IMG/VR virus record: IMGVR_UViG_3300020430_000008
Location: 1-64,000 of that record
Reading direction: 5' to 3' (one strand)
DNA length: 64,000 nucleotides
From: a virus
The notes below the pieces were generated by a model. It ran no database searches, was not told the DNA's origin, and saw only the letters and a list, made by a program, of their open reading frames with translations. The first letter of the stretch is position 1; each line of letters opens with the position of its first letter. Positions 18,454 to 32,939 of this stretch are shown piece by piece. Made by a program: the position numbers and the translations under genes.

Positions 18454-20193
18454 TTAAGCCCCAGACTCACCAAGAAGTCCTCGGACAATAACAAGACCGT
18501 ACATATCAGGACGCACCATCTTCTTAGCGTAGCGAGTCATGACACCCTTGCGTGGCACGAAGTCCTCGACACCAAAGATGGTGGGAGTAACTTGCAGTGG
18601 CACATAAGGAGCGTATACATAACCGCTCTCTAAGAAAGATCCACCCTTACGACCAACGAGGACGACGTTTCTTGGGAAGTAAGGATCGACATAAACGTCC
18701 CACTTCTTGGAAATGCTTCCAACGTTAACCGCTCCGACTTGACCCTTAGAGTCGTCGGCGGTGATCTTTGCGCGGAATCCACTAGTGAACTCAAGAATGT
18801 TGGCAACTTCTGGTCCGCAGACGATGAAGTTAGCGCCACCACGCAGAGTCTTGCGGTGGATTTGAGCCGACACGTCGTTGATAGTCTCAACCAAAGTCTC
18901 ATACCACTCACTGACAGTACCAGTGAAGTCGGGAGCCTTGGCAGATGCACCAATCTCAGCGCCAGTTGTACGCTTCACGAACAGACCGGGAGAGCGCGAC
19001 CAGTAGTAAGTACCGGCAGATGCACCCTTGATGAGATCTTCGACGATCTCGCGGTCAATCTCAAGAGCAATTTGCTCAGAGAGAATAGAGGTAAGCTCGA
19101 CCTCGGCGTCAAGGTTGTGATAGGCGTTAAGATCCTGTCCCAACTCTGGCGTCCACTTAGCCTTAAGCTTCTTCGTAACGGCGGTAACGCTGATCGAATC
19201 GACCTTAATGTCGATCTCGGCAATACCTTCGTTTGCCTCCAGACCCCAATCATCAGTACCAACAACAGCGCCGAGTGCTTGGTTAGAACCAGCGGCTGCA
19301 GTGCCAGTGAAGTCGTCAACAAGAGGGAAGGTTACCGTAGTGGTACCGTCACCTGTGCCGGGAGCCAAGCTGCTGAAAGATGCGGTCGCGTGGAACACAA
19401 CTTCAAGAATGGAACCGGACGCCTTAGAAAGACGACGTACTTGAGTAGAACCAGAAGGAGTTGAAGCACCAACTACGTTGGGTGGCTCAACCTTAATGGC
19501 TACGGGGTTTTGGTTGCTACCATCAAGACCCATCTGCTCACGCTGAGTGTCAGTGAGAGTCAGGTGAAGAACCTGTGCGTAAGTTCCTGCCGCAAGGTCA
19601 GGATCGAAACGAAGGTACTTGTCGGTAGCGTCGGCAGCACCGACCTCGAACACACCCTCACCAGAGTCAAGAACCTTCGCGATTGCGAGGCTGATAGAGC
19701 CTGTGGGAGAGCTAGAACCTTGGTTCATGGCGTAGAATGACTTCTCGCCGTGACGAGTAACATTGTCATCATCGATGGAAACACCACCAGTGATTTCTTG
19801 ACCGACAACATTGCCGCCGTAAAGCGACTCTTCTGCAGCAGCGTTAAGCTTAGCAGAGGTATGTTGGAAATCAAGGAAGAAAATGAGTCCACTTGGGAGA
19901 CTCATAGGCTGAACGGACACGAGGTCGTTCGCGATGAGGGAACCGAATACACGACGCACGATGGGGAATGCAACAGCGGCAAATCCTTCAACGTCACCAC
20001 CAGCCATGGTGGATGCCTCACGAAGTAGCTCCTTGGCTTGGTTCTCAAGAAGGCGAGCCATGGTATCCTTGGTTCGACTGTTCTCAAGACCCTCAAGAAG
20101 ACCAGTGCGCTCCCACTTATCAAGCAGAGCAGCGCCTTCCTTCGACACATCGCGAGCAACAATTCCTTCGGTCAACTTATTAATAATAGACAT
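18454..20193 (-). CDS. Major capsid protein, T4 gp23-like
   Basis: The 579-residue protein shows the gp23 signature FPIVRRVFGSLIANDLVSVQ at about residues 76-95 followed by PMSLPSGLIFFLDF, then an HK97-type capsid core with KLKAKWTPELGQDLNAYHNLD and a C-terminus with YAKKMVRPDMYGLVIVRGLL. The first 59 residues are helical and would act as the delta domain; L57-R58-E59 before A60 fits the (L/I)xE cleavage rule of the T4 prohead protease, whose homologue is encoded at 28544. The scaffold gene is immediately upstream and a strong terminator follows, both as expected for the most abundant virion protein. T4 gp23 is 521 residues; the extra length lies in the central surface part. Confidence 0.92.
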   Translation of the reverse strand: MSIINKLTEGIVARDVSKEGAALLDKWERTGLLEGLENSRTKDTMARLLENQAKELLREASTMAGGDVEGFAAVAFPIVRRVFGSLIANDLVSVQPMSLPSGLIFFLDFQHTSAKLNAAAEESLYGGNVVGQEITGGVSIDDDNVTRHGEKSFYAMNQGSSSPTGSISLAIAKVLDSGEGVFEVGAADATDKYLRFDPDLAAGTYAQVLHLTLTDTQREQMGLDGSNQNPVAIKVEPPNVVGASTPSGSTQVRRLSKASGSILEVVFHATASFSSLAPGTGDGTTTVTFPLVDDFTGTAAAGSNQALGAVVGTDDWGLEANEGIAEIDIKVDSISVTAVTKKLKAKWTPELGQDLNAYHNLDAEVELTSILSEQIALEIDREIVEDLIKGASAGTYYWSRSPGLFVKRTTGAEIGASAKAPDFTGTVSEWYETLVETINDVSAQIHRKTLRGGANFIVCGPEVANILEFTSGFRAKITADDSKGQVGAVNVGSISKKWDVYVDPYFPRNVVLVGRKGGSFLESGYVYAPYVPLQVTPTIFGVEDFVPRKGVMTRYAKKMVRPDMYGLVIVRGLLGESGA

Positions 20194-20218: not shown

Positions 20219-21259
20219 TTATTTGATTCCAGCTAGTCTTTGCATACGGTTTACCGCATGTTCAGAACCAACTGTCTTTTGGGTTTTGCGTCTTGGTAAA
20301 GTGGTAGACTTTCTACTAATGGCTTCGCTAAGTGATTCTGGACCGCGCTTTGTCGGAGCGGATCCCACTGTGCTTTGAAGAGTTTCATAAATAACCTTCA
20401 CTTCCTCGACAGTACGTGAGTTAGACAGTGCTTCGACAATCTTATTCTTTTGTCGCTCATTCAAGGAGACACTATTCAATACACGATTTGTATAGACGAG
20501 CTTTGCGTTGGAGAGATTGACTTCCTCAAGGTTGTCCTTCATCTTCATTGCAATGCTCTTCAATTCATTGTATTCTTCGGCAAGCTTCTTCTTATCGGCT
20601 GTCAGTGCAGCAACTTGCTCTTCTAAATCTTTCTTTGATTTGCGCATGCCGTCAAGTTCTTCTTCAAGATCTGAATCGACCTCTTTCGCTGCTTCCATTT
20701 CAGAAGCTTCCTCGACTTCTCTGCGAGTGGCATCACCGGGATGCCCGTTGGGAACGACCTCAATATCCACAGTGGTCTTGACTTCTTCTGTCAACTCCTG
20801 CAGGATAGCTGCCAACTGTTCCTCAGTTAAATCAATACTTTCCTCTTCCTCGCCCTCTTCGAGTGCCATCATAGCGTCCTCGCGGGGCTCTTGGGCTACG
20901 GCACCCATGCCGCCAGCTTCTTCTTCGGCTGCAACAGCAGCGGCAAGCTGGTCTAAATCAAGCTCAATCTTCTCTTCCTCGTCGGGGCAGGGACAAAGCT
21001 TCTCTCCCTCGGCATAAGATGGGGGAGCGTCTAAATCAGAAACTGCTGCTTCCTCATCGCCACCCATGGGGTTCTCTACACCGGGCTCTTCTGGCTCCAG
21101 ACCAAGCTCTTCATCCTCGGGTGCCTCGTTCAACAGGCGATCCACAGCGTCCTTGATTTCTGGTGCGTATTTCTCAAGAATTTGAGTTTCGGCATTCTTC
21201 AAGGCAGCTTCCTTAAGAGCCGCTGCATCGACGATAGCCTGTTCAAGCATACTAGACAT
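20219..21259 (-). CDS. Prohead core scaffold protein, T4 gp22-like
   Basis: The chosen start at 21259 (MSSMLEQAIVDAAALKEAAL) has GAGAGG seven bases upstream, unlike the in-frame codon at 21274. The 346-residue protein is highly acidic between residues 45 and 185 and forms a coiled coil from about 190 to 265. The C-terminal part carries NRVLNSVSLNERQKNKIVEA and a terminal NRMQRLAGIK, which I recognise as the conserved end of gp22 scaffolds. In T4, gp22 fills the prohead and is degraded by the gp21 protease before DNA packaging. The acidic stretch offers many (L/I)xE sites. The gene is directly upstream of the capsid gene, the T4 order. Confidence 0.85.
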   Translation of the reverse strand: MSSMLEQAIVDAAALKEAALKNAETQILEKYAPEIKDAVDRLLNEAPEDEELGLEPEEPGVENPMGGDEEAAVSDLDAPPSYAEGEKLCPCPDEEEKIELDLDQLAAAVAAEEEAGGMGAVAQEPREDAMMALEEGEEEESIDLTEEQLAAILQELTEEVKTTVDIEVVPNGHPGDATRREVEEASEMEAAKEVDSDLEEELDGMRKSKKDLEEQVAALTADKKKLAEEYNELKSIAMKMKDNLEEVNLSNAKLVYTNRVLNSVSLNERQKNKIVEALSNSRTVEEVKVIYETLQSTVGSAPTKRGPESLSEAISRKSTTLPRRKTQKTVGSEHAVNRMQRLAGIK

Positions 21260-21305
21260 TAATAATCCTCTCAATTAGAATAGGAAATAGATACGGTTTT
21301 CCAAT

Positions 21306-21359: not shown

Positions 21360-24300
21360 CTATCCGCAGTTGTATGTACAAGCTGCAAGATATCTCTTGT
21401 AAGTCACTCCGTCGTGCTCAATCGTATCCGTTACCGAAGCCCAGTCGATTGTTTCAACACACTTCGCAACAGTATAGCTGTGTAGCAGATCATCAGCCTG
21501 CTTTCCACCGTAACCGGGTACAACAGTCGAGCAAATGTAATCGCCTCTCTCGACTTCTCCATTCTTGTTGGTTACCCACACAAGACCTTCGCCAGTTGAG
21601 TTGACAACGATGGGAGTTTCGTTTTCGCCAACATTTTCAGGCGCATGGTATCCACCATAGAAGTAGTCGTCAGTATCGTCGCTGGTTTCAATACGACTCA
21701 AGACGCCAAACACTGCCTTGTCATTGTCAGTTGATGCAACAGATACTTTTGGAAGTCCTGTGCTGACTGTTGACTCATTCTTCATCCAAATTTCTCCCGT
21801 AGAAGATACGATAAGCCCGACCACAAGACTGCCGATAGGATCTGCAGTGACTGTCGGGTGGCGACCAGTGAACGCATCCAAGTAGGATACGCCGTTTGAT
21901 CCATCGCCAATGATTTTTCCAACAGCGGCGGTGGCACTTCTCATTTGCAGGAAGCAATGACCAGAATCAATGTCGCCTGTTGAATCATTAACCTTAAGGC
22001 GAAGAACGTCGGCTTGGTTTCCGGTCGCTGCGTTCTCAAAGATACCGACAAAACTGCTAGCCTGTGTAGCTGCTACGTGCAATTTGTGATCTGGACTGTC
22101 AGTTCCGATACCGACGTTGCCCTGAACGACCATGCCACCCGTTGGTGCTGTGGAGCTTCCTGCGTAAGATGAGCCGATCGCAACAGCGCCATTAATATCG
22201 AGCAGGTTAGCGGGCGCATCCTCGCTGATACCAATGCGGGCTTCGCCGGAGATACCAGTAATATACAAGACCTCATCTATAGAGGTGCTGCCGTCAACAC
22301 CAACGGCAAACTTCATCATTGTACCCAGCGATGAGTTGTAGGTCCATGCTGCCTCATCGCCCTCGACAAGAATGTAAGCCGTTTGTGCGGGATTGCCGGC
22401 AATGCCGTCTGTCTCCGTACCGTACCAGCGGATTGAACCAATGTTCCCGCCATTAGAGATGGTTCCACCGGGTCCATAAAGCGCAAGCTTTGTTTCGCCA
22501 GTCTTGCTGGCTAGACTCAACTGGGCAGTGTTCGATTGAATAACAACATCGTTGTCGATGTAGCCGTCGTTGTCAAACGAAAGTACAGTATTTCCTGTGT
22601 TGCTCTTAATATCATTACCAGCCACCGTCAGATCGCCGATGATAGTAACATCTCCATCAAAATGAGCCCAAGAGCCAACCAAGAGAGAACCAGACTTAGC
22701 AATTGAAATACCGCCGTTGTCATAGCCGTCAACAATCAGAACTTGTTCATTGTTATCAGCACCGTCAATAAAGAATGCGTTTTGCTTTCCGTTTGATTCA
22801 ATACGGAAATTGGCAGAGTTGCTGCCCTCGTTAAAGACAACGCTATTCTGCGAAAGCTCAAGTAATGGTTGTGTGTTGTTACCTGCATGAAGGCTCATTG
22901 TGTTAGGCGTGAACTTGATCGCTGTGTCAACATCACTAACGTGTACAATGTTGCCTTTGATTGCGAGATCTGCAAACGTAGCAGAACCACTAGGAGTGAT
23001 GTTCCAACCTTCTGTGGTTCCTGCCGCCTCATAGCCTCTAAGTGTTTGTTCCTCGTCGATCATGATGGCTCTGACAGCTTCGGGTGCATCTTGACCCGCT
23101 GTCTTGAACACCAATGTTGTGTCGTTTCTGTCGGATGCGTGCGTGAATGATGCCGAAGCTTCTACGGAAGCCAACAAGTTTGCGGAATCTCCACCGCCTG
23201 CATCAGAACCCATGAAGTGGAGAGCGCCAATTGGATCTGCGTTCGCAACAGTACCGTCGCCGCCCTTTAAGATCAGGATTGCTTGCTGATTGTCGCCGTT
23301 GTTTAGATTCTCGATTCTAAGTCCCGTGTCTGGGATGTGCTGTAGTTTGATCTCGGCGTCAGTGCCCCACTCAATGAACGCGCCATCGTTAGTGTATGTT
23401 GACGCTGCCGTGTCAATCTTGATATTGTTGTTCGTGTCAAGCACAAGATAGCTGCCCGGTCCAGCGGCTGAGCCGCTCAGGGTCGCACCTGCACCAAGTG
23501 TTACCGAACCAGATACCTTGAGATCTCCAGATGTTCTAAGCTCTGTGCTAGAGTAGTGCGGATCCGAACCTGACATGTCTGGAGTTGTACCGTCAGACCA
23601 TGCGACCTTTCCACCGAGAGCGTCCCATGAAAGATACTGACCGTCACTCGGAGTGTCGTCACCAATCTTAGTAACCTTTCCGTTTCTTCCGAACGTCATA
23701 GCAACATCAGCACCCAAACCATCGTCAACTGAAAGGTTGACGGTGCCGGCTGAGGGCGAAACATTGAACTTGATTCCTGCTCCGTCAAGAGTCAACCCAA
23801 GCCCACCAATATGTGCGCCACCTTGAGCACTCAAAGTGCTGGAACCAGAGATGCTTTGCGCCTCAAAAGAACCGGTGACTTGGTGTGTGTGTCCATTCGC
23901 AGAACCAAGAATACTAGAGCCTGATGCGAGCAATCCGCCATCAGAAATAAGATTACTGGTTGCTTTGACATCCTTGAAGTACAGATCCTTAGAACCTGTC
24001 ACCGATGTAAGACCACCTGTGATAGATGCTGCATTTGATACGATGATTGCCTTGTCACCCTCTACAGTACCGGCTGTGCCCACATCTGTCTTGGTGTAAG
24101 TCTTGATGCGGCTCATCTCAGCCTTGCGATTGGTGCCGTTAGCGCCGTCATCAACAATAATAAGGTCGGAATCAGCTAAGGCTGCGCCGATGTCATTAGC
24201 GCCGTCAATCTCAAGAGCAGAAAGAGCAACCTTGCCTGCGGTTGAGATTGTGTTCAACTTGCTGTCGTCAATCGAACCTGCGAGCATACTGTTCTCAACA

Positions 24301-26900
24301 GCAGTGGCAGCGATAGTAAGAGCACCACCTGCAGCGATTGTAGCATCACCGGAGACATTGCCAAATACAGTGTCCTCCAAGTTTGAAATTGTGATAGCTT
24401 TTAATTTTTCGCCAGCATTGCCATCAGCATCAAAAATCAACAACTCATCTGACTGGGCAGCAGTGGCTCCTAAGTTTGTTGCGGAGCCGATAACGTTTTC
24501 ATTAACCATGCCATCTTCAACAGCGGCAGCAGCGATAGTCACAGCGCCTGCACTGGAAATAGTAACATCTCCTGAAACAGTAACCTCTTGATAACTTGTG
24601 CCATCTGCAACAAGAATCTTCGCAGCTTGGTTGTCGGGCATTGCAAAGGTGGTTCCAACGGTCAGAGAGCCGGAAGTTTCAATATCGTTTGCAACAACCT
24701 TAGCCACATGAACCTCACCAGAACCCGTAACTGGTCCGAGAGCAGCAGAGATATGCATCGAAGAGTTGACTTGAGGATGGGAAATGAAATCATCTTTGAC
24801 TCTTACATGAAATGCAAATTTCCCAAGATCCGTAGAATACATAACCATGTCAGTATCAGGAGTATTGGTGCCGGCATTAAAACTGATTAAGTTGTGACTA
24901 CCGGAGCCATCATAACTCGTCATAGTCATCATGTTGTTACTACCGGCGCGGAATTGAATAGTATCGTTGGCTAAGTGTATGTATGTATCTGAGTGACCGT
25001 CTTCACCATCACCTAGGTGACGAATGTAATCAGCGGCGTGAATCTCTCCACCAAAGATTGCGTTACTGCTTACTTCCAGCGAGCCTGTGACTTGGTGAGT
25101 TTCTGCAGCGGTAGAGCCAAGGATGCTTGAGCCAGAAACATACAGATATCCAGAGGTGTCGAATCCAACTGGGGAATATGTACGATTGGTTGTGAGACTG
25201 GAAGAAGCATAGTTTGATCTGTCAACTACAATGCCGTGTGCCGTACCTGAGATATAAAGGTCGTTAACATAAAGGTGCTCAGCTTTAATGTCATGGGAAG
25301 CCGACATACCACCTACGATATAAAGTGCATGGCTTGAACCAGAAGCATCGATTGTCGCGATACTATTGCCAACCGCCGCGCCAGCTACAGTGGCGGCGCT
25401 ACCGACAGCAAGTACGGGTCCAGTACCGTGAGCAGCGGCACCAGAGATCCACATATCATTGCCTACAAATTTAGCTGCGTGGATTTCACCGGAGCCTGTG
25501 ATTGGTCCGAGAGCAGCGGAGATGTGCATCGAAGAGTTGACTTGGGGGTGAGAGATGAGTGGATCGAGAGCGCGGACATGGAATGCAAACGTACCGTCAG
25601 TTGAATACATCGCCATGTCAGTATCTGGGTCGTTTGATCCGGCATTGAAGCTGATCAAATTCTGACTACCGGAGCCATCATAGCTCGTCATGGTGATCAT
25701 GTTGTTGCTACCAGCGCGGAATTGAATAGCATCGGTAGCTAGGAGCATGTATGTATCTGAATGTCCGTCTTCGCCGTCGCCTAGGTGACGGATGTAATTG
25801 GCAGCGTGAATCTCTCCACCAATGATCGTATTACTGCTTACTTCCAGCGTGCCCGTGACCTGTGTTCCTACAGAATCGACAACCATCCGTGTGTTCAGAC
25901 CGTCCGTACCGATGCGTAACTTCTTCGTGTTACCGGAATAATCAATCCAGCCTTCGCCATCGTTTGCGTTTGTATTTCCAGCAAACCTAATAGTACCGAC
26001 ACCGGTTGCAGTAGAGGCAATTGTCATTCCACGGTTGCCTGTTAAGTCACCAATAACAAGATCGTTCTTTTCATCGGGCTGTGCGAGAGGATTGCTCCCG
26101 CCAATGTGGACAGAGCCAGAAGTGTGGATATCGTTACTTACAAATCTAGCCGCGTGAATCTCGCCAGAGCCTGTGATTGGTCCGAGAGAGGCTGTGATAT
26201 GTAATGAGCCATTGGTTGCAACATCAGCGTCGTTACCTCTAAGATAGAAATGGTATTTTGGGGAATCACCATCATTGTAATGACCGTCACGCATAAAGAA
26301 ATCTGTATCGTTCGTAGTGCCGTCATCGTCAGCATTGCTGCTAGCATTCAACCCAATGAAGTTTTGGCTACCGGATGCGTCAGAGCCATATATTCGCAGC
26401 ATATTTGTGCTGCCGGCGCGGAAGGTCATCTGATCCGTGCCCAAAAGGATATATGTGTCCGAATGACCGTCTTCGCCATCACCATGGTGGCGAATGTAGT
26501 TGGCAACATGAACCTCGTCGCTCAAGATGGTTTTGCCACTAACTTCCAGCGAGCCTGTGCGCTGGTGAGTGTCGTCGCTGGTGTCACCGAACTGTGTACT
26601 ACCCGATACCTGAACCTCTGTGGAGGTCACCTGCCTGATTGTGTAAGTCTCAGCATGGACCGCGCCACTAATGTACATGTTTCCATACAAGTACAGCGCG
26701 GAACCGCTAGCGTCAGGAGCAGACTTGTGCCCATCTGTTGCGGCATAAAATACTAAATCTTCTGAGCCGCTGAACTGACCGGGTACTAAATCTTCACTAC
26801 CCCATCTAAACTGTAGTGAGCCGGATGGACCGTCAGCAGAAGCTGTTGCTCGCTGAGCGTCAATATACGCCCATCCATAATCATCGGGTGGTGGAGCCAT
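21360..26900 (-). CDS. Very long repetitive fibre-like virion protein with marine-type C-terminal domain
   Basis: The 1846-residue protein is built of beta-type repeats. Three copies of a module containing YIRHLGDGEDGHSDTY, FRAGSNNM, SGSQNLISFNAG and SLHITASLGPITGSGEIHAA occupy about residues 105-750. A middle section (residues 770-950) has the SGDATIAAGGALTIAA-type repeat shared with the 916-residue protein. Later segments read NVGIGTDSPDHKLHV, a common phage fibre phrase. The last 200 residues form a domain with NDKAVFGVLSR, EGLVWVTNKNGEVERGDYIC and a final YKRYLAACTYNCG; I have seen similar ends in marine phage and algal virus fibres, where they may aid trimerisation or autoprocessing. The start overlaps the bS21 gene by 20 bases, with its GGGAGG site inside that gene. 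Confidence 0.75.
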   Translation of the reverse strand: MAPPPDDYGWAYIDAQRATASADGPSGSLQFRWGSEDLVPGQFSGSEDLVFYAATDGHKSAPDASGSALYLYGNMYISGAVHAETYTIRQVTSTEVQVSGSTQFGDTSDDTHQRTGSLEVSGKTILSDEVHVANYIRHHGDGEDGHSDTYILLGTDQMTFRAGSTNMLRIYGSDASGSQNFIGLNASSNADDDGTTNDTDFFMRDGHYNDGDSPKYHFYLRGNDADVATNGSLHITASLGPITGSGEIHAARFVSNDIHTSGSVHIGGSNPLAQPDEKNDLVIGDLTGNRGMTIASTATGVGTIRFAGNTNANDGEGWIDYSGNTKKLRIGTDGLNTRMVVDSVGTQVTGTLEVSSNTIIGGEIHAANYIRHLGDGEDGHSDTYMLLATDAIQFRAGSNNMITMTSYDGSGSQNLISFNAGSNDPDTDMAMYSTDGTFAFHVRALDPLISHPQVNSSMHISAALGPITGSGEIHAAKFVGNDMWISGAAAHGTGPVLAVGSAATVAGAAVGNSIATIDASGSSHALYIVGGMSASHDIKAEHLYVNDLYISGTAHGIVVDRSNYASSSLTTNRTYSPVGFDTSGYLYVSGSSILGSTAAETHQVTGSLEVSSNAIFGGEIHAADYIRHLGDGEDGHSDTYIHLANDTIQFRAGSNNMMTMTSYDGSGSHNLISFNAGTNTPDTDMVMYSTDLGKFAFHVRVKDDFISHPQVNSSMHISAALGPVTGSGEVHVAKVVANDIETSGSLTVGTTFAMPDNQAAKILVADGTSYQEVTVSGDVTISSAGAVTIAAAAVEDGMVNENVIGSATNLGATAAQSDELLIFDADGNAGEKLKAITISNLEDTVFGNVSGDATIAAGGALTIAATAVENSMLAGSIDDSKLNTISTAGKVALSALEIDGANDIGAALADSDLIIVDDGANGTNRKAEMSRIKTYTKTDVGTAGTVEGDKAIIVSNAASITGGLTSVTGSKDLYFKDVKATSNLISDGGLLASGSSILGSANGHTHQVTGSFEAQSISGSSTLSAQGGAHIGGLGLTLDGAGIKFNVSPSAGTVNLSVDDGLGADVAMTFGRNGKVTKIGDDTPSDGQYLSWDALGGKVAWSDGTTPDMSGSDPHYSSTELRTSGDLKVSGSVTLGAGATLSGSAAGPGSYLVLDTNNNIKIDTAASTYTNDGAFIEWGTDAEIKLQHIPDTGLRIENLNNGDNQQAILILKGGDGTVANADPIGALHFMGSDAGGGDSANLLASVEASASFTHASDRNDTTLVFKTAGQDAPEAVRAIMIDEEQTLRGYEAAGTTEGWNITPSGSATFADLAIKGNIVHVSDVDTAIKFTPNTMSLHAGNNTQPLLELSQNSVVFNEGSNSANFRIESNGKQNAFFIDGADNNEQVLIVDGYDNGGISIAKSGSLLVGSWAHFDGDVTIIGDLTVAGNDIKSNTGNTVLSFDNDGYIDNDVVIQSNTAQLSLASKTGETKLALYGPGGTISNGGNIGSIRWYGTETDGIAGNPAQTAYILVEGDEAAWTYNSSLGTMMKFAVGVDGSTSIDEVLYITGISGEARIGISEDAPANLLDINGAVAIGSSYAGSSTAPTGGMVVQGNVGIGTDSPDHKLHVAATQASSFVGIFENAATGNQADVLRLKVNDSTGDIDSGHCFLQMRSATAAVGKIIGDGSNGVSYLDAFTGRHPTVTADPIGSLVVGLIVSSTGEIWMKNESTVSTGLPKVSVASTDNDKAVFGVLSRIETSDDTDDYFYGGYHAPENVGENETPIVVNSTGEGLVWVTNKNGEVERGDYICSTVVPGYGGKQADDLLHSYTVAKCVETIDWASVTDTIEHDGVTYKRYLAACTYNCG
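24680..26590 (-). repeat. Three long tandem modules in the 1846-residue fibre gene
   Basis: The segment coding for YIRHxGDGEDGHSDTY recurs near 26470, 25768 and 24997, giving periods of about 700 and 771 bases. The two copies nearest the 3' end of the gene are closest at DNA level, with long blocks of near-identical sequence around 24750-25090 and 25520-25860. Confidence 0.8.
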
Positions 26901-27258
26901 TTGAGCCGCCTCCCTTGGCTCTCATACGGCGCAGCTTACTTTGGCGCTTGCGCTGGGCTTCTTTCTTTCGTTCAGCCTTCTTGCGGAGCCTTTCTGCCTC
27001 TCGAATAGCCGCAGCGCGCTTGAGGCGCTTGGCGTCAGAGGGTTTTGTGTAATATCTATTCTCACGGACTTGTTCAACAATCCGCTCTTTCTTGCACTTA
27101 CGGACAAAGCGACGGATCATCTTCTCGGCAGGCTCGCCCTTGCGTGCAACGACAGTAACATTCGACTGTCTTGGTGGTCCCGGCACAACCTCTCTCTCGT
27201 AACGGCGAGGTCTGTGCGTACGGCGTCTGTTATGATTTCTGTTTCTACGGAATGCCAT
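26881..27258 (-). CDS. rpsU: Phage-encoded ribosomal protein bS21
   Basis: Residues 34-100 match bS21: VTVVARKGEPAEKMIRRFVR, a helix KCKKERIVEQVRENRYYTKP, then SDAKRLKRAAAIREAERLRKK. Bacterial bS21 is about 70 residues and sits on the 30S platform near the 3' end of 16S rRNA, where it influences initiation site choice. This copy is 125 residues, with an Arg-rich N-terminal extension (residues 1-25) and a Lys/Arg-rich C-terminus. bS21 genes are known from phages of SAR11 and from huge phages, so phage origin is credible. It lies between two virion genes, with only a weak AGGTAAC ribosome site in contrast to the GGAGG of its neighbours. It probably replaces host bS21 late in infection, which is inference. 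Confidence 0.85.
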   Translation of the reverse strand: MAFRRNRNHNRRRTHRPRRYEREVVPGPPRQSNVTVVARKGEPAEKMIRRFVRKCKKERIVEQVRENRYYTKPSDAKRLKRAAAIREAERLRKKAERKKEAQRKRQSKLRRMRAKGGGSNGSTTR

Positions 27259-27267
27259 TTAAGTTAC

Positions 27268-27732
27268 CTATGCGTCACTGCCAGCAGGGGCTTCGGTCAA
27301 ACCAGAGCCAGTCAAAGCGTACATTCTGCCGGCAGGAATGCCGGTAAGTTCAGCATAAACTCTGTAGTGTCCTTTGCCTCCACCATCGTTGGGCACAGAA
27401 ACATAGATACCAGTGCATTTAGCGCCAAGTTCAAGGACGCCGCCAGCAGAGCCTGTTACGGATTGTACTTCCAAATAGTGCAAACCACCATAGCCACTGG
27501 TCAAGCCGCCGGCAACATCGCCGCTAGCGGTAAGTGAGTTGTAGTGTACGCGAAGAACTCTATCGGAATAATTGTGGATGGTCACTTTAGACGCAACCCA
27601 TTGGAAACCGTACTCTACCTCTGTATTAACTGCTTGTGAATCCGAGCCTGAGATATAGGGATCTCCCGATACCATGTAGGATCCAACGTTTTGTAAGCCC
27701 GCTGAATAGCCGAATGTGCTGTTGTCTGCCAT
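27268..27732 (-). CDS. Small virion protein, possible head decoration protein
   Basis: The 154-residue protein begins MADNSTFGYSAGLQNVGSYM and continues VSGDPYISGS, an opening I associate with small structural proteins of marine phages. The rest is beta-rich and almost free of helices, with VEYGFQWVASKVTIHNYSDR in the middle and Gly/Ser-rich loops. There is no membrane segment or enzyme motif. It begins a possible transcript after an ACTATTTAT motif and precedes the bS21 gene by nine bases. A capsid decoration or fibre-base role is plausible from size and composition but unproved. Confidence 0.7.
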   Translation of the reverse strand: MADNSTFGYSAGLQNVGSYMVSGDPYISGSDSQAVNTEVEYGFQWVASKVTIHNYSDRVLRVHYNSLTASGDVAGGLTSGYGGLHYLEVQSVTGSAGGVLELGAKCTGIYVSVPNDGGGKGHYRVYAELTGIPAGRMYALTGSGLTEAPAGSDA

Positions 27733-28543: not shown

Positions 28544-29152
28544 TTAATCCTCGACGATATCGTTTAATAGGCGATTAATCTTATCTGCCTTTGTAAATAC
28601 ATTTGGTTCTTTGTAGGTCTTACCCTCGCTGAGCCCCATAAAGGCATTGGGAGTCGAAGGCTCTGATACGAAGTCGAAACAGATTAACTGAAAATCATCC
28701 TCTACAATCGTGCGCCCTTGAGCCTCGCTGACCGAACCAAGTCCGCGTGACGAAATCCCGAGTTTCACACCGTCATTGACAAGCTCTTGAAGAATCTTGC
28801 CGGATGGTGTATTTAAAATTTTGACCTTTCCCATAACATTAGGACCGTCCCACCACATGTCAGTGACCATGTGCGAAGCGTTCTTAAGGTTAATAACCGA
28901 ATCCTCGGGGTGGTCTAATTCCCCAAGGGCTCTTTTTTCTTGTACAAGCTTTTGATAGGTCTTCACCTCTCTCTCAAGAATCTTTCTTGGATAGATGCGA
29001 CCATTGCCATTCTGAACATCAGCTTCTTGCAGCTTGCCAGAAAGCATCATGCCACCTTGGTTGACATAGATCTTTTCCTCTTCCGTCAAGAGATCCTGAC
29101 AGACGCCGCCTTCGCATAGCTCATAATATTCTCGTAAAAGTACTTTCTTCAT
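28544..29152 (-). CDS. Prohead maturation protease, T4 gp21-like
   Basis: The 202-residue protein has the pattern of the T4 gp21 serine protease family: NGRIYPRKILEREV at residues 50-63, the catalytic His in GELDHPEDS (H81), and the nucleophile region GISSRGLGS (S134/S135), with an acidic residue near FDFVSEPSTPNA at about residue 160 as the likely third member. In T4 it digests scaffold, core proteins and itself and trims the capsid protein. It is encoded between the portal and the scaffold/capsid genes, as in T4. The C-terminus, ending INRLLNDIVED, could be the self-cleaved propeptide. Confidence 0.9.
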   Translation of the reverse strand: MKKVLLREYYELCEGGVCQDLLTEEEKIYVNQGGMMLSGKLQEADVQNGNGRIYPRKILEREVKTYQKLVQEKRALGELDHPEDSVINLKNASHMVTDMWWDGPNVMGKVKILNTPSGKILQELVNDGVKLGISSRGLGSVSEAQGRTIVEDDFQLICFDFVSEPSTPNAFMGLSEGKTYKEPNVFTKADKINRLLNDIVED

Positions 29153-30143: not shown

Positions 30144-30961
30144 TAGCTTTCAATCTCCGCTACCAGTTCTTGAATCTTCATAACTTGCATAAGCATCTTG
30201 CGATCAATCTGGCGGTCCTTGAATGCATCGATAGTCTCCACCACCTTGTCAGTCTTTGCAAGCATAGCGTCATCAGACGAAATCTCGTTCAACGAGCGAG
30301 ATGAGACAAGCGCGCCCTTCAAGCGTGATAACTCTTCATTCAAAAACATTTTCAGCGCGATGCCATTGTCCGAGAAGGAAACAATGTATGCGCTGAGTAA
30401 CTTGTTCTGCTCTTCTCTGAGAGTGGATGAATACTGTTCATTAAACTTTTTAACAAACGTGTCGTACACAATATTATCAATTGGCTTCATCGTGCTTTCG
30501 GTCAAAGTCACGACGCCGGCAGTCATCTTATTAAGAACGTTATTCTCTAACAATGTGCGCTGCTTGATAGTTGTGCGGTTATCAAAAATCTGGGAGATGG
30601 TTGCAAGGTCTTTGTAGTTAGGGACAAACGTGTTGAATGTGTCCTTGCCAAGCTCCCTATTGATAGTGCCGATAAGCTGTGATTGCTGGTCAAATACTTC
30701 TTCCTGATTCAGCGCCATGTATACGCGCTTGACCTCTAACAAAAGCTTTTCAGCAGTCATGGGGTCAACATCAACGGTTTCGTACAAAGTTCTATACAAC
30801 TCAAGCTCAAGACCCAGCGGGGTATCGCGTCTGAAAAACTCTTTCATAATAGAAACGATTTTCTTGTTACGAGCAGAGTCGTTGCTAACTACGCTGCTGG
30901 TTAGCTCTCTAACCAGAGTTTCATACAAAAACGCTGTATTTCTTTTCTTATTGTGCTTCAT
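30143..30961 (-). CDS. Conserved helical head-region protein, unknown
   Basis: The preferred start is 30961 (MKHNKKRNTAFLYETLVREL), with GGAG ten bases upstream inside the end of the portal gene; a start at 30994 would overlap the portal gene further. The 272-residue product is almost wholly alpha-helical and charged, with KIVSIMKEFFRRDTPLGLEL near residue 38 and LYRTLYETVDVDPMTAEKLL after it. I recognise the N-terminus as one that recurs next to portal genes in marine T4-like phages, but no function is known to me. It may be a prohead core or portal-associated assembly factor. Confidence 0.7.
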   Translation of the reverse strand: MKHNKKRNTAFLYETLVRELTSSVVSNDSARNKKIVSIMKEFFRRDTPLGLELELYRTLYETVDVDPMTAEKLLLEVKRVYMALNQEEVFDQQSQLIGTINRELGKDTFNTFVPNYKDLATISQIFDNRTTIKQRTLLENNVLNKMTAGVVTLTESTMKPIDNIVYDTFVKKFNEQYSSTLREEQNKLLSAYIVSFSDNGIALKMFLNEELSRLKGALVSSRSLNEISSDDAMLAKTDKVVETIDAFKDRQIDRKMLMQVMKIQELVAEIES

Positions 30962-32939
30962 TCTTTTTAGACTCCAATCTTTGTAAACTCTCAATCAATG
31001 ACTTAGTTTCGGAATGGCTAGCGTGAACCTTCTTCTCTTCGGTATAATTAGGTTCAACATTCTCGTTTAGCCCATGTCCAAGTCTACTCAAGTCATTAAG
31101 TCCTTTGAAAAGATTCCTGTTCGATGTACTGGCAATCGACATTCCTGAATCGGCATGATGGCTGCGCTTACGAGCACCGCGCTTTCTACGGTCCCTCTTG
31201 ACAGGATAATATGCTTTGCCCTTTGAGCCGGGAGTTACATAGCCTCCATCTTCACGGCGACCGGGTGCTGCCAGAAGCGCTGTGTCTTCTTCCTCTCCAC
31301 CACCTTCATCGCCGCCGAGATCGCCACCAAGGTCATCACCACCCTCGTCGCCTCCGAGATCGCCACCAAGGTCACCGCCCAGATCGCCGCCTTCATCGCC
31401 ACCAAGGTCGCCGCCCAAGTCTCCGCCTAGGTCACCACCTAAGCCGCCGCCGCCACCTTGGTCAGCTTCTTCGGGAGGCTCTGCTGCTGCTTCAAGCATT
31501 GCCTGAATTCTCTTATCATAAAACATTTCACGCTGGTTACGCAGGAATTCTTCTGCCGACATGCCAAGCAGGTTCTCTGCAACCCAGCGGCGACTGAAAA
31601 ATCCTTCTGTTGCTGCCGATGCAGTGTCAAACTTGGTATTCCAGTGCTCAAGCTCTTGCAACTCTGCAATCTTAGAAGGATTGTTAAGCTGCAACTTGAA
31701 CGAGATGAGGTCATCGCCTCTAAAGCCAAGTGTAAAGAGATGAATGATGCCAATCTTCTCAAGTTCAGAGATAACTGAGCGCTGTAAGCGCTGAATGGTT
31801 CTTGCGAAGCGCACATCCTTCTGCGCTAGCGTGGTTTTGTCCTCTTCGCCGCCTTCACCGCGTGAAAGATAGGACATTGGAATCTTCAAAGCAGAAAATA
31901 GCTTGTCGCGAAGGTATTTAACGTCATCAATGTCGCCAGTGTACGTTCCACCGGGCAAAGACTCGACTCTGCTGCTCTCTCCACCACGTACAGGGATGAA
32001 ATAGTCCTCATCAATGCTCATTGGGTTGTATCGGAGGTCAACACGACCAGTTTTGGGGTCCACAACCTGATTTCTCTTCATCTGGGTCGTGACTTTCTGC
32101 ATAAACTGTTCTACATCGTGCGGTGGGATGTTACCAACGTCAATATAGAACACTCGACGCTCTGGTGAGCGCACAATACGGTATGCCATCATCGCATCTT
32201 CAAGCAAAGTAAGCTGACGCCAGATTCGGCGGGCTCCTTCAAGCACAGAAGTGCCGTATGGGGCAAATTTATCATTACCAAGGATGCGGAAGTGTGCAAT
32301 CTGCCAGTTCTCAAAGGTCAAACCGCCTGAGTTCCACTGATACTGCACATAATTGGGGTTTGTTTTGTCTTCGCCCTCTAATCTTTCAAGCTCTTCAAGC
32401 GGAATACCAACTGCATTCTTAATTCCATGGACTTCATCAATGTCCAAGTACAAAAAGTAGTCTCCAAACTTACACATCGTACGGCACCAGCCGAATAAGT
32501 TGGAGTCAATGTTCAAAATCTTGTGATATAAGTTGTCCAGTACGACTTTGATCTCATCGTTGGAGCAATCAATCTTTAAAAGTGGGCTGAGAATCGTAGA
32601 TGTTGTCATCTCGTCAGCATAAATGTCTAGCGCAGAGGCAATCTCTGGCATATATTCCATCTGGTCAAAGTCAAGATAGCGTTCTTGGCGGTTCTGGTTC
32701 GCCATAACCTGCGCGCTGAGATTGTCGTACGGATTGTACGACGTTCTCTTAAAGTTCAAGCCGCCTGCGGACGTAAAATTGAACTTGTCAAGTTGCGCAC
32801 GACGATATCGGCGCTGCATTTGCACGCGGCGATTGACAATCGGACCAGAAAGCAATCGAGTCAGCCGCTTGAATAACGGTGACTCTGGGTTTCTTGGATT
32901 TTTAAGATTTGGGTTTCCCCGCTTACTGTTATCAGCCAT
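30948..32939 (-). CDS. Portal protein, T4 gp20-like
   Basis: The 663-residue protein shows gp20 features: YRRAQLDKFNFTSAGGLNFK near the N-terminus, RYLDFDQMEYMPEIASALDIYADEMTT near residue 85, a central segment EDAMMAYRIVRSPERRVFYID and PPHDVEQFMQKV, then RDKLFSALKIPMSYLSRGEG near residue 330. The portal is the dodecameric ring at one capsid vertex through which DNA is packaged. T4 gp20 is 524 residues; the extra length here is mostly C-terminal. Residues 494-547 are a Gly-Gly-Asp-Leu/Glu repeat, followed by a basic, disordered-looking tail. The gene follows the terminase by three bases and overlaps the next gene by 14 bases. Confidence 0.9.
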   Translation of the reverse strand: MADNSKRGNPNLKNPRNPESPLFKRLTRLLSGPIVNRRVQMQRRYRRAQLDKFNFTSAGGLNFKRTSYNPYDNLSAQVMANQNRQERYLDFDQMEYMPEIASALDIYADEMTTSTILSPLLKIDCSNDEIKVVLDNLYHKILNIDSNLFGWCRTMCKFGDYFLYLDIDEVHGIKNAVGIPLEELERLEGEDKTNPNYVQYQWNSGGLTFENWQIAHFRILGNDKFAPYGTSVLEGARRIWRQLTLLEDAMMAYRIVRSPERRVFYIDVGNIPPHDVEQFMQKVTTQMKRNQVVDPKTGRVDLRYNPMSIDEDYFIPVRGGESSRVESLPGGTYTGDIDDVKYLRDKLFSALKIPMSYLSRGEGGEEDKTTLAQKDVRFARTIQRLQRSVISELEKIGIIHLFTLGFRGDDLISFKLQLNNPSKIAELQELEHWNTKFDTASAATEGFFSRRWVAENLLGMSAEEFLRNQREMFYDKRIQAMLEAAAEPPEEADQGGGGGLGGDLGGDLGGDLGGDEGGDLGGDLGGDLGGDEGGDDLGGDLGGDEGGGEEEDTALLAAPGRREDGGYVTPGSKGKAYYPVKRDRRKRGARKRSHHADSGMSIASTSNRNLFKGLNDLSRLGHGLNENVEPNYTEEKKVHASHSETKSLIESLQRLESKKNEAQ
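31300..31461 (-). repeat. GGDLGGD low-complexity repeat in the portal gene
   Basis: About 54 codons encode repeats of Gly-Gly-Asp-Leu/Glu, with the plus strand showing repeated gccaccaaggtcgccgcc-like units. The tract is strongly acidic and flexible and lies near the portal C-terminus. Simple repeats of this type can change length by slippage. Confidence 0.8.

Follow-up and report, generated by a model that had tools for sequence, protein, structure and literature searches.

A ribosomal protein bS21 gene predicted within the head-assembly operon of a T4-like phage clade

Ribosomal protein bS21 binds loosely and can be exchanged (PMC9578407), and in Flavobacterium it helps to control the choice of messages at initiation (PMC9976891). 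It is also the commonest ribosomal protein in phages. The bS21 of Pelagibacter phage HTVC008M, the sole phage bS21 tested in vitro, enters E. coli 70S ribosomes and brings their activity down to about 5% (PMC6375957), so that incorporation need not help translation. Huge-phage rpS21 with basic N-terminal extensions, for which RNA binding was proposed, was described together with tmRNA by Al-Shayeb et al. 2020 (PMC7162821), and Chen et al. 2022 showed that bS21 is transcribed late with structural genes, suggested its encapsulation and found structural genes within ten genes of bS21 in 388 of 900 other bS21 phages (PMC9723584), a count in which some phages of the clade considered below may be included. 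In view of these papers (Mizuno 2019, PMC6375957; Al-Shayeb 2020, PMC7162821; Chen 2022, PMC9723584), the ideas offered in the initial annotation of the present locus, namely a late bS21 retuning host initiation, N-terminal extensions and possible packaging, are sensible and already in print.

The DNA analysed here, referred to as the window, is a stretch of 64,000 nucleotides (47% GC) of a T4-like, 141,217-base IMG/VR virus record. Its minus strand carries, in this order, TerL, the gp20 portal, a gp21-type protease, the small ORFs p116, p152 and p154, bS21, an ORF of 1846 aa, a scaffold-like gene and the gp23 major capsid protein (MCP), followed within the same block by neck, sheath and tube genes (Table 1); a large ORF is taken as TerL through its homology to annotated terminases. 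The block is T4-like in character (portal, protease, MCP, sheath, tube). Neither p154 nor the 1846-aa ORF, which flank bS21 directly, matches a known family, so that the earlier designation of these two as virion genes follows from position. The fold of p154 is a weakly predicted beta-sandwich with no convincing relative, and a decoration-like role is only a guess; the 1846-aa ORF may be fibre-like. Across the clade p154 travels with bS21, sometimes before and sometimes after it.

Table 1. Features of the bS21 locus and of the surrounding head block (positions in the window)
Feature	Position	Strand	Basis
Major capsid protein (gp23)	18454..20193	-	homology
gp22-like scaffold (putative)	20219..21274	-	position; homology to the ORF that precedes MCP in relatives
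Repeat-rich ORF of 1846 aa immediately following bS21, length-variable in relatives	21360..26900	-	ORF, relatives
Overlap, 20 nt, of bS21 3' end with start of 1846-aa ORF	26881..26900	-	ORF coordinates
Phage bS21 gene, 125 aa, ATG start	26881..27258	-	ORF translation, S21 profile matches
Arg/Asn-rich N-terminal extension of bS21, codons 1-32	27163..27258	-	comparison of relatives
Gap, 9 nt, between p154 stop and bS21 start	27259..27267	-	ORF coordinates
p154, small predicted beta-sandwich protein, conserved bS21 neighbour in clade	27268..27732	-	predicted structure, locus comparison
Prohead core protease (gp21, Peptidase_S77)	28544..29152	-	family match
T4-type portal protein (gp20)	30948..32939	-	family match

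The bS21 ORF exceeds the curated cut-offs of both Pfam PF01165 (Ribosomal_S21; 47.9 bits against a cut-off of 27, E=1.1e-12, residues 35-87) and the NCBIfam equivalog TIGR00030 S21p (43.6 bits against 28.95, residues 34-90), and it matches the bS21 chains of solved ribosomes over residues about 36-98 (best E=1e-7), so that the match over about 65 residues claimed previously was a fair description. The residues EP, RRF.R.C.K and KP of the core are common to phage and enterobacterial bS21. AlphaFold places helices at 44-57, 60-69 and 73-115 and predicts the two-helix bS21 fold with a pLDDT of about 72-90 in the core and a whole-chain pTM of 0.36; over 22 relatives the bS21 helices and a long C-terminal helix are likewise predicted, the N tail being of low confidence. 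The top eight PDB matches returned by Foldseek are all bacterial or plastid bS21 (probability up to 1.00), and the best E-value of only 0.02 is expected, since the fold is so short. With profile matches above cut-off and a bS21-like predicted fold, the assignment made in the initial annotation therefore stands and the ORF is predicted to encode a genuine bS21 domain. An antisense ORF at 26941-27537(+), 198 aa long, was considered and rejected, in that the family match and the purifying selection belong to the bS21 frame; open stretches on the antisense strand persist among relatives with varying lengths (154, 129 and 120 aa). No second S21 copy was found in the 141-kb contig. A tblastn comparison of the window bS21 with 50,697 phage records gave no match, the search being so insensitive that the S21 of Microcystis phage Mel-JY01 was missed.

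The protein consists of an Arg/Asn-rich N tail (residues 1-32), the S21 domain (approximately 34-90) and a basic C-terminal helix and tail. With 125 aa as compared to 71 aa in enterobacteria, and with lysine and arginine making up 11 of 32 residues of the N tail and 16 of 38 of the C tail, it is indeed nearly twice the usual length by virtue of basic ends. Apart from the window, the N tail occurs solely in the relatives closest to it (L002/L006, L003/L007/L008/L049, L005, L009 and L051), and in the window's subclade the C-terminal helix is expanded and accompanied by basic tails; the other members of the clade have plain bS21s of 66-90 aa with the same core residues. The long N-terminal extensions of two further loci (L110 and L057) were rejected as longest-ORF artefacts arising from upstream TTG/GTG starts, the real starts being near the core. 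The sequence at the end of the C tail is partly set by the overlap with the ribosome-binding site of the next gene: its KGGGS coincides with that Shine-Dalgarno and this portion is therefore not independent evidence of function.

The conservation of the slot was surveyed in the best 80 portal relatives, which were chosen by their portal protein so as not to select on bS21. In all 17 of these loci that span the region from protease to scaffold/MCP, bS21 lies in between and in the orientation of the head genes. Of the 37 loci that extend 400 bp or more beyond p152, 36 contain the gene, the exception (L045) ending just after p154, inside the block. The portal-selected hits, which comprise 30 distinct proteins, all lie on the head-gene strand and the gap separating bS21 from the preceding gene is usually 0-20 nt. 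A profile search gave 29 relatives from viruses, with few exceptions encoded in this head block. Exactly one S21 copy is present in 22 of the 23 records searched whole; the remaining one, the more distant T4-like Flavobacterium phage immuto, has no S21 between protease and MCP. From these comparisons of sequence, bS21 is to be counted among the core genes of the clade, and both this status and the existence of a clade with a universal, same-strand and operon-embedded placement of the gene are new here.

Compared with its closest relative, the bS21 gene displays a dN/dS of about 0.08 as a whole and of about 0.01 in the core, the tails being less constrained; its conservation and the former value indicate that the ORF is not a chance one. 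The pairwise divergences of bS21 and protease are correlated (Mantel r=0.67, 0/2000 permutations), which shows that bS21 has been inherited together with the head genes, and the dN/dS values denote purifying selection. In a tree of the core, 51 slot bS21s, that of Mel-JY01 included, form one group (86/84) from which that of the huge phage LR756508 stands apart, a grouping only indicative in that it relies on 57 columns and on a limited cellular sample of two phyla plus one Salmonella gene. The LR756508 protein (L155:5714-5953), a divergent bS21, falls on a long branch among cellular sequences and may have reached this slot independently. Among isolates, the closest portal proteins show only about 42% identity. 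As to cellular sequences, a small phylum (G022, G138-G145) that includes a MAG labelled Bacteroidetes HKST-UBA01 has two bS21 genes in eight of nine genomes, and its RKC-motif bS21 type outscores most of the sampled Verrucomicrobiota bS21s on the phage profile. AGRM01000002.1 (L133), filed among phage records, is a 691-kb Salmonella genome contig with the host rpsU-dnaG and may give rise to spurious S21 matches among phages.

The translation signals of the gene set it apart from its neighbours. On a scale that assumes the standard anti-Shine-Dalgarno, which may not be that of the host, the AGGT site of bS21 scores -3.7 kcal/mol compared to a window median of -6.6, -8.5 for MCP and -11.3 for the 1846-aa ORF; some three quarters of the phage genes have a stronger site and that of bS21 is near background, as anticipated from the contrast previously drawn between a weak site of its own and strong virion-gene sites. 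Indeed, 26% of random 20-mers reach -3.7 kcal/mol, so that bS21 can hardly be said to have a site of its own. Over the whole clade, bS21 sites have a median of -4.8 and MCP sites one of -10.9. The strong use of Shine-Dalgarno sites argues weakly against a Bacteroidota host. The weak site overlaps the p154 stop codon, and the Shine-Dalgarno of the 1846-aa ORF (AAGGGAGG) lies just upstream of the overlap, inside the bS21 codons for KGG; the coupling of start and stop to the neighbouring genes that had been proposed is thus borne out by the gap on one side and the overlap on the other. Given a ribosome-binding site that hardly differs from background and an upstream gap of only 9 nt, bS21 is probably translated by ribosomes leaving p154, and a coupling of its translation to that of the preceding gene is likely.

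As to timing, late synthesis had been postulated. The position of bS21 in the head operon of every relative covering the slot is in keeping with it, and so is a candidate gp55-type late sigma factor outside the window (L037:2085-2771 (-), contig 86085-86771; PHROG 234, E=3.5e-5), on account of which the phage likely encodes such a factor; on the other hand, the T4-type late promoter TATAAATA occurs only twice in 64 kb and never near the head block or bS21, and the support for late synthesis is indirect. PhoH is also encoded outside the window.

The reading that we favour, with a probability of roughly 0.7, is that a phage-encoded bS21 paralogue, fixed in the head operon and made late, exchanges onto the host 30S and favours the phage late messages. 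The gene would have been acquired once or a few times in the ancestry of the T4-like clade and then fixed within the head-assembly operon, where ribosomes translating p154 would carry on into bS21 and the protein would be co-made with the capsid proteins late in infection. It would then bind to the host 30S, or replace the exchangeable bS21 on it, near the anti-Shine-Dalgarno end of 16S rRNA, and initiation would be kept on, or biased to, phage late messages, the basic tails possibly helping to hold rRNA or mRNA. The fixed, same-strand slot speaks for selection maintaining the joint production of bS21 and capsid proteins.

The same incorporation into the 30S could have the opposite purpose, the phage bS21 mainly impairing initiation on host messages rather than aiding those of the phage. 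Such a shut-off would be in line with the activity of about 5% displayed in vitro by E. coli ribosomes carrying HTVC008M bS21 (PMC6375957), and the strong Shine-Dalgarno sites of the virion genes might escape the block. That experiment, however, made use of a mismatched host; furthermore, the phage would profit more from a pure inhibitor early in infection, whereas the gene is in the late block, and active ribosomes are needed for virion synthesis, so that we consider host shut-off unlikely. Still less probable is the packaging alternative raised in the initial annotation, according to which bS21 would be built into the head, injected and already active on the ribosomes when the next infection begins. 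The position of the gene, fixed next to those of core protease, scaffold and capsid, would suit a packaged protein. T4-type packaged internal proteins have an N-terminal capsid-targeting peptide that ends at the gp21 site (L/I)XE. Residues 1-32 of the window bS21 contain neither Leu nor Ile, hence no targeting peptide of this type, and the N-terminal tail is absent from most relatives; the sequence thus lends no support to encapsulation as proposed by Chen et al. 2022 (PMC9723584). Finally, the S21 fold might have been reused in head assembly, in a basic protein that binds nucleic acids or belongs to the core. A basic protein within the head block with an expanded C-terminal helix and basic tails might point to such a use, which is nevertheless very improbable, given that constraint is strongest in the S21 core (dN/dS about 0.01) and that relatives keep plain bS21s with the same core residues.

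The contig also encodes, outside the window, a full one-piece tmRNA (L038:17354-17687 (-), contig 121354-121687; 127.6 bits) with the tag ANNNNHFDSARLAA, adjoined by an FKBP-type prolyl isomerase with a Lys/Ala/Thr-rich start (L038:16678-17274 (-)); an AhpC/thioredoxin-like protein is found at L038:5888-6397 (-). Eight clade contigs are 130 kb or longer, and seven of these have a tmRNA, with related tags in several of them, e.g., ANNNNHFDSVRLAA in two others. In other phages the tmRNA matched over no more than a 32-34-nt 3' end, and in plasmids not at all; SmpB was absent from the phage records tested. Phage tmRNAs are known but uncommon, a survey of phage genomes having found them in about 2% (PMC9004378). 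It is a tentative and rather doubtful extension of the favoured reading that this T4-like lineage keeps a translation kit in which the head-operon bS21, possibly virion-borne, would steer initiation and the tmRNA with its conserved tag would free stalled ribosomes; shared ancestry alone could explain the pairing.

The known phage bS21 systems resemble the present one to different extents. In the freshwater Bacteroidetes huge phages of Chen et al. 2022, as here, bS21 is a few genes away from protease, portal, TerL and MCP, but in those five clades bS21 and the structural genes are on opposite strands and do not share an operon, whereas the window bS21 is on the same strand (as in all 37 portal-selected hits), embedded and overlapping the next gene; furthermore, those genomes are of 293-331 kb with about 31-34% GC, as opposed to a contig of 141 kb with 47% GC in the window. 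Pelagibacter phage HTVC008M and the pelagimyophages (PMC6375957, PMC7029224) share with it a bS21 domain in a T4-like myovirus; nevertheless, the HTVC008M protein, of 67 aa, is too short for such tails and its gene is beside CobS and a heat-shock gene, near replication genes and about 16 kb from MCP, from which it follows that the late slot is not general. The rpS21 of Al-Shayeb et al. 2020 (PMC7162821) has a basic N-terminal extension, comparable to the 32 residues with 11 K/R found here, but in phages of >200 kb, the likeness being taken from their description. In the uncultured 484-kb phage LR756508 a plain bS21 of 79 aa immediately precedes scaffold and MCP. The closest counterpart is Microcystis phage Mel-JY01 (PP395634), the annotated RpsU of which (75 aa) lies between protease and scaffold/MCP on the same strand, although it is only 30% identical in the core and devoid of the N-terminal Arg-rich tail, and no full tmRNA was found in this phage. 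A clade with a universal bS21 gene in a fixed operon slot on the capsid-gene strand represents a clean comparative system and, since Mel-JY01 has both a named host and the same arrangement, the role proposed here is testable.
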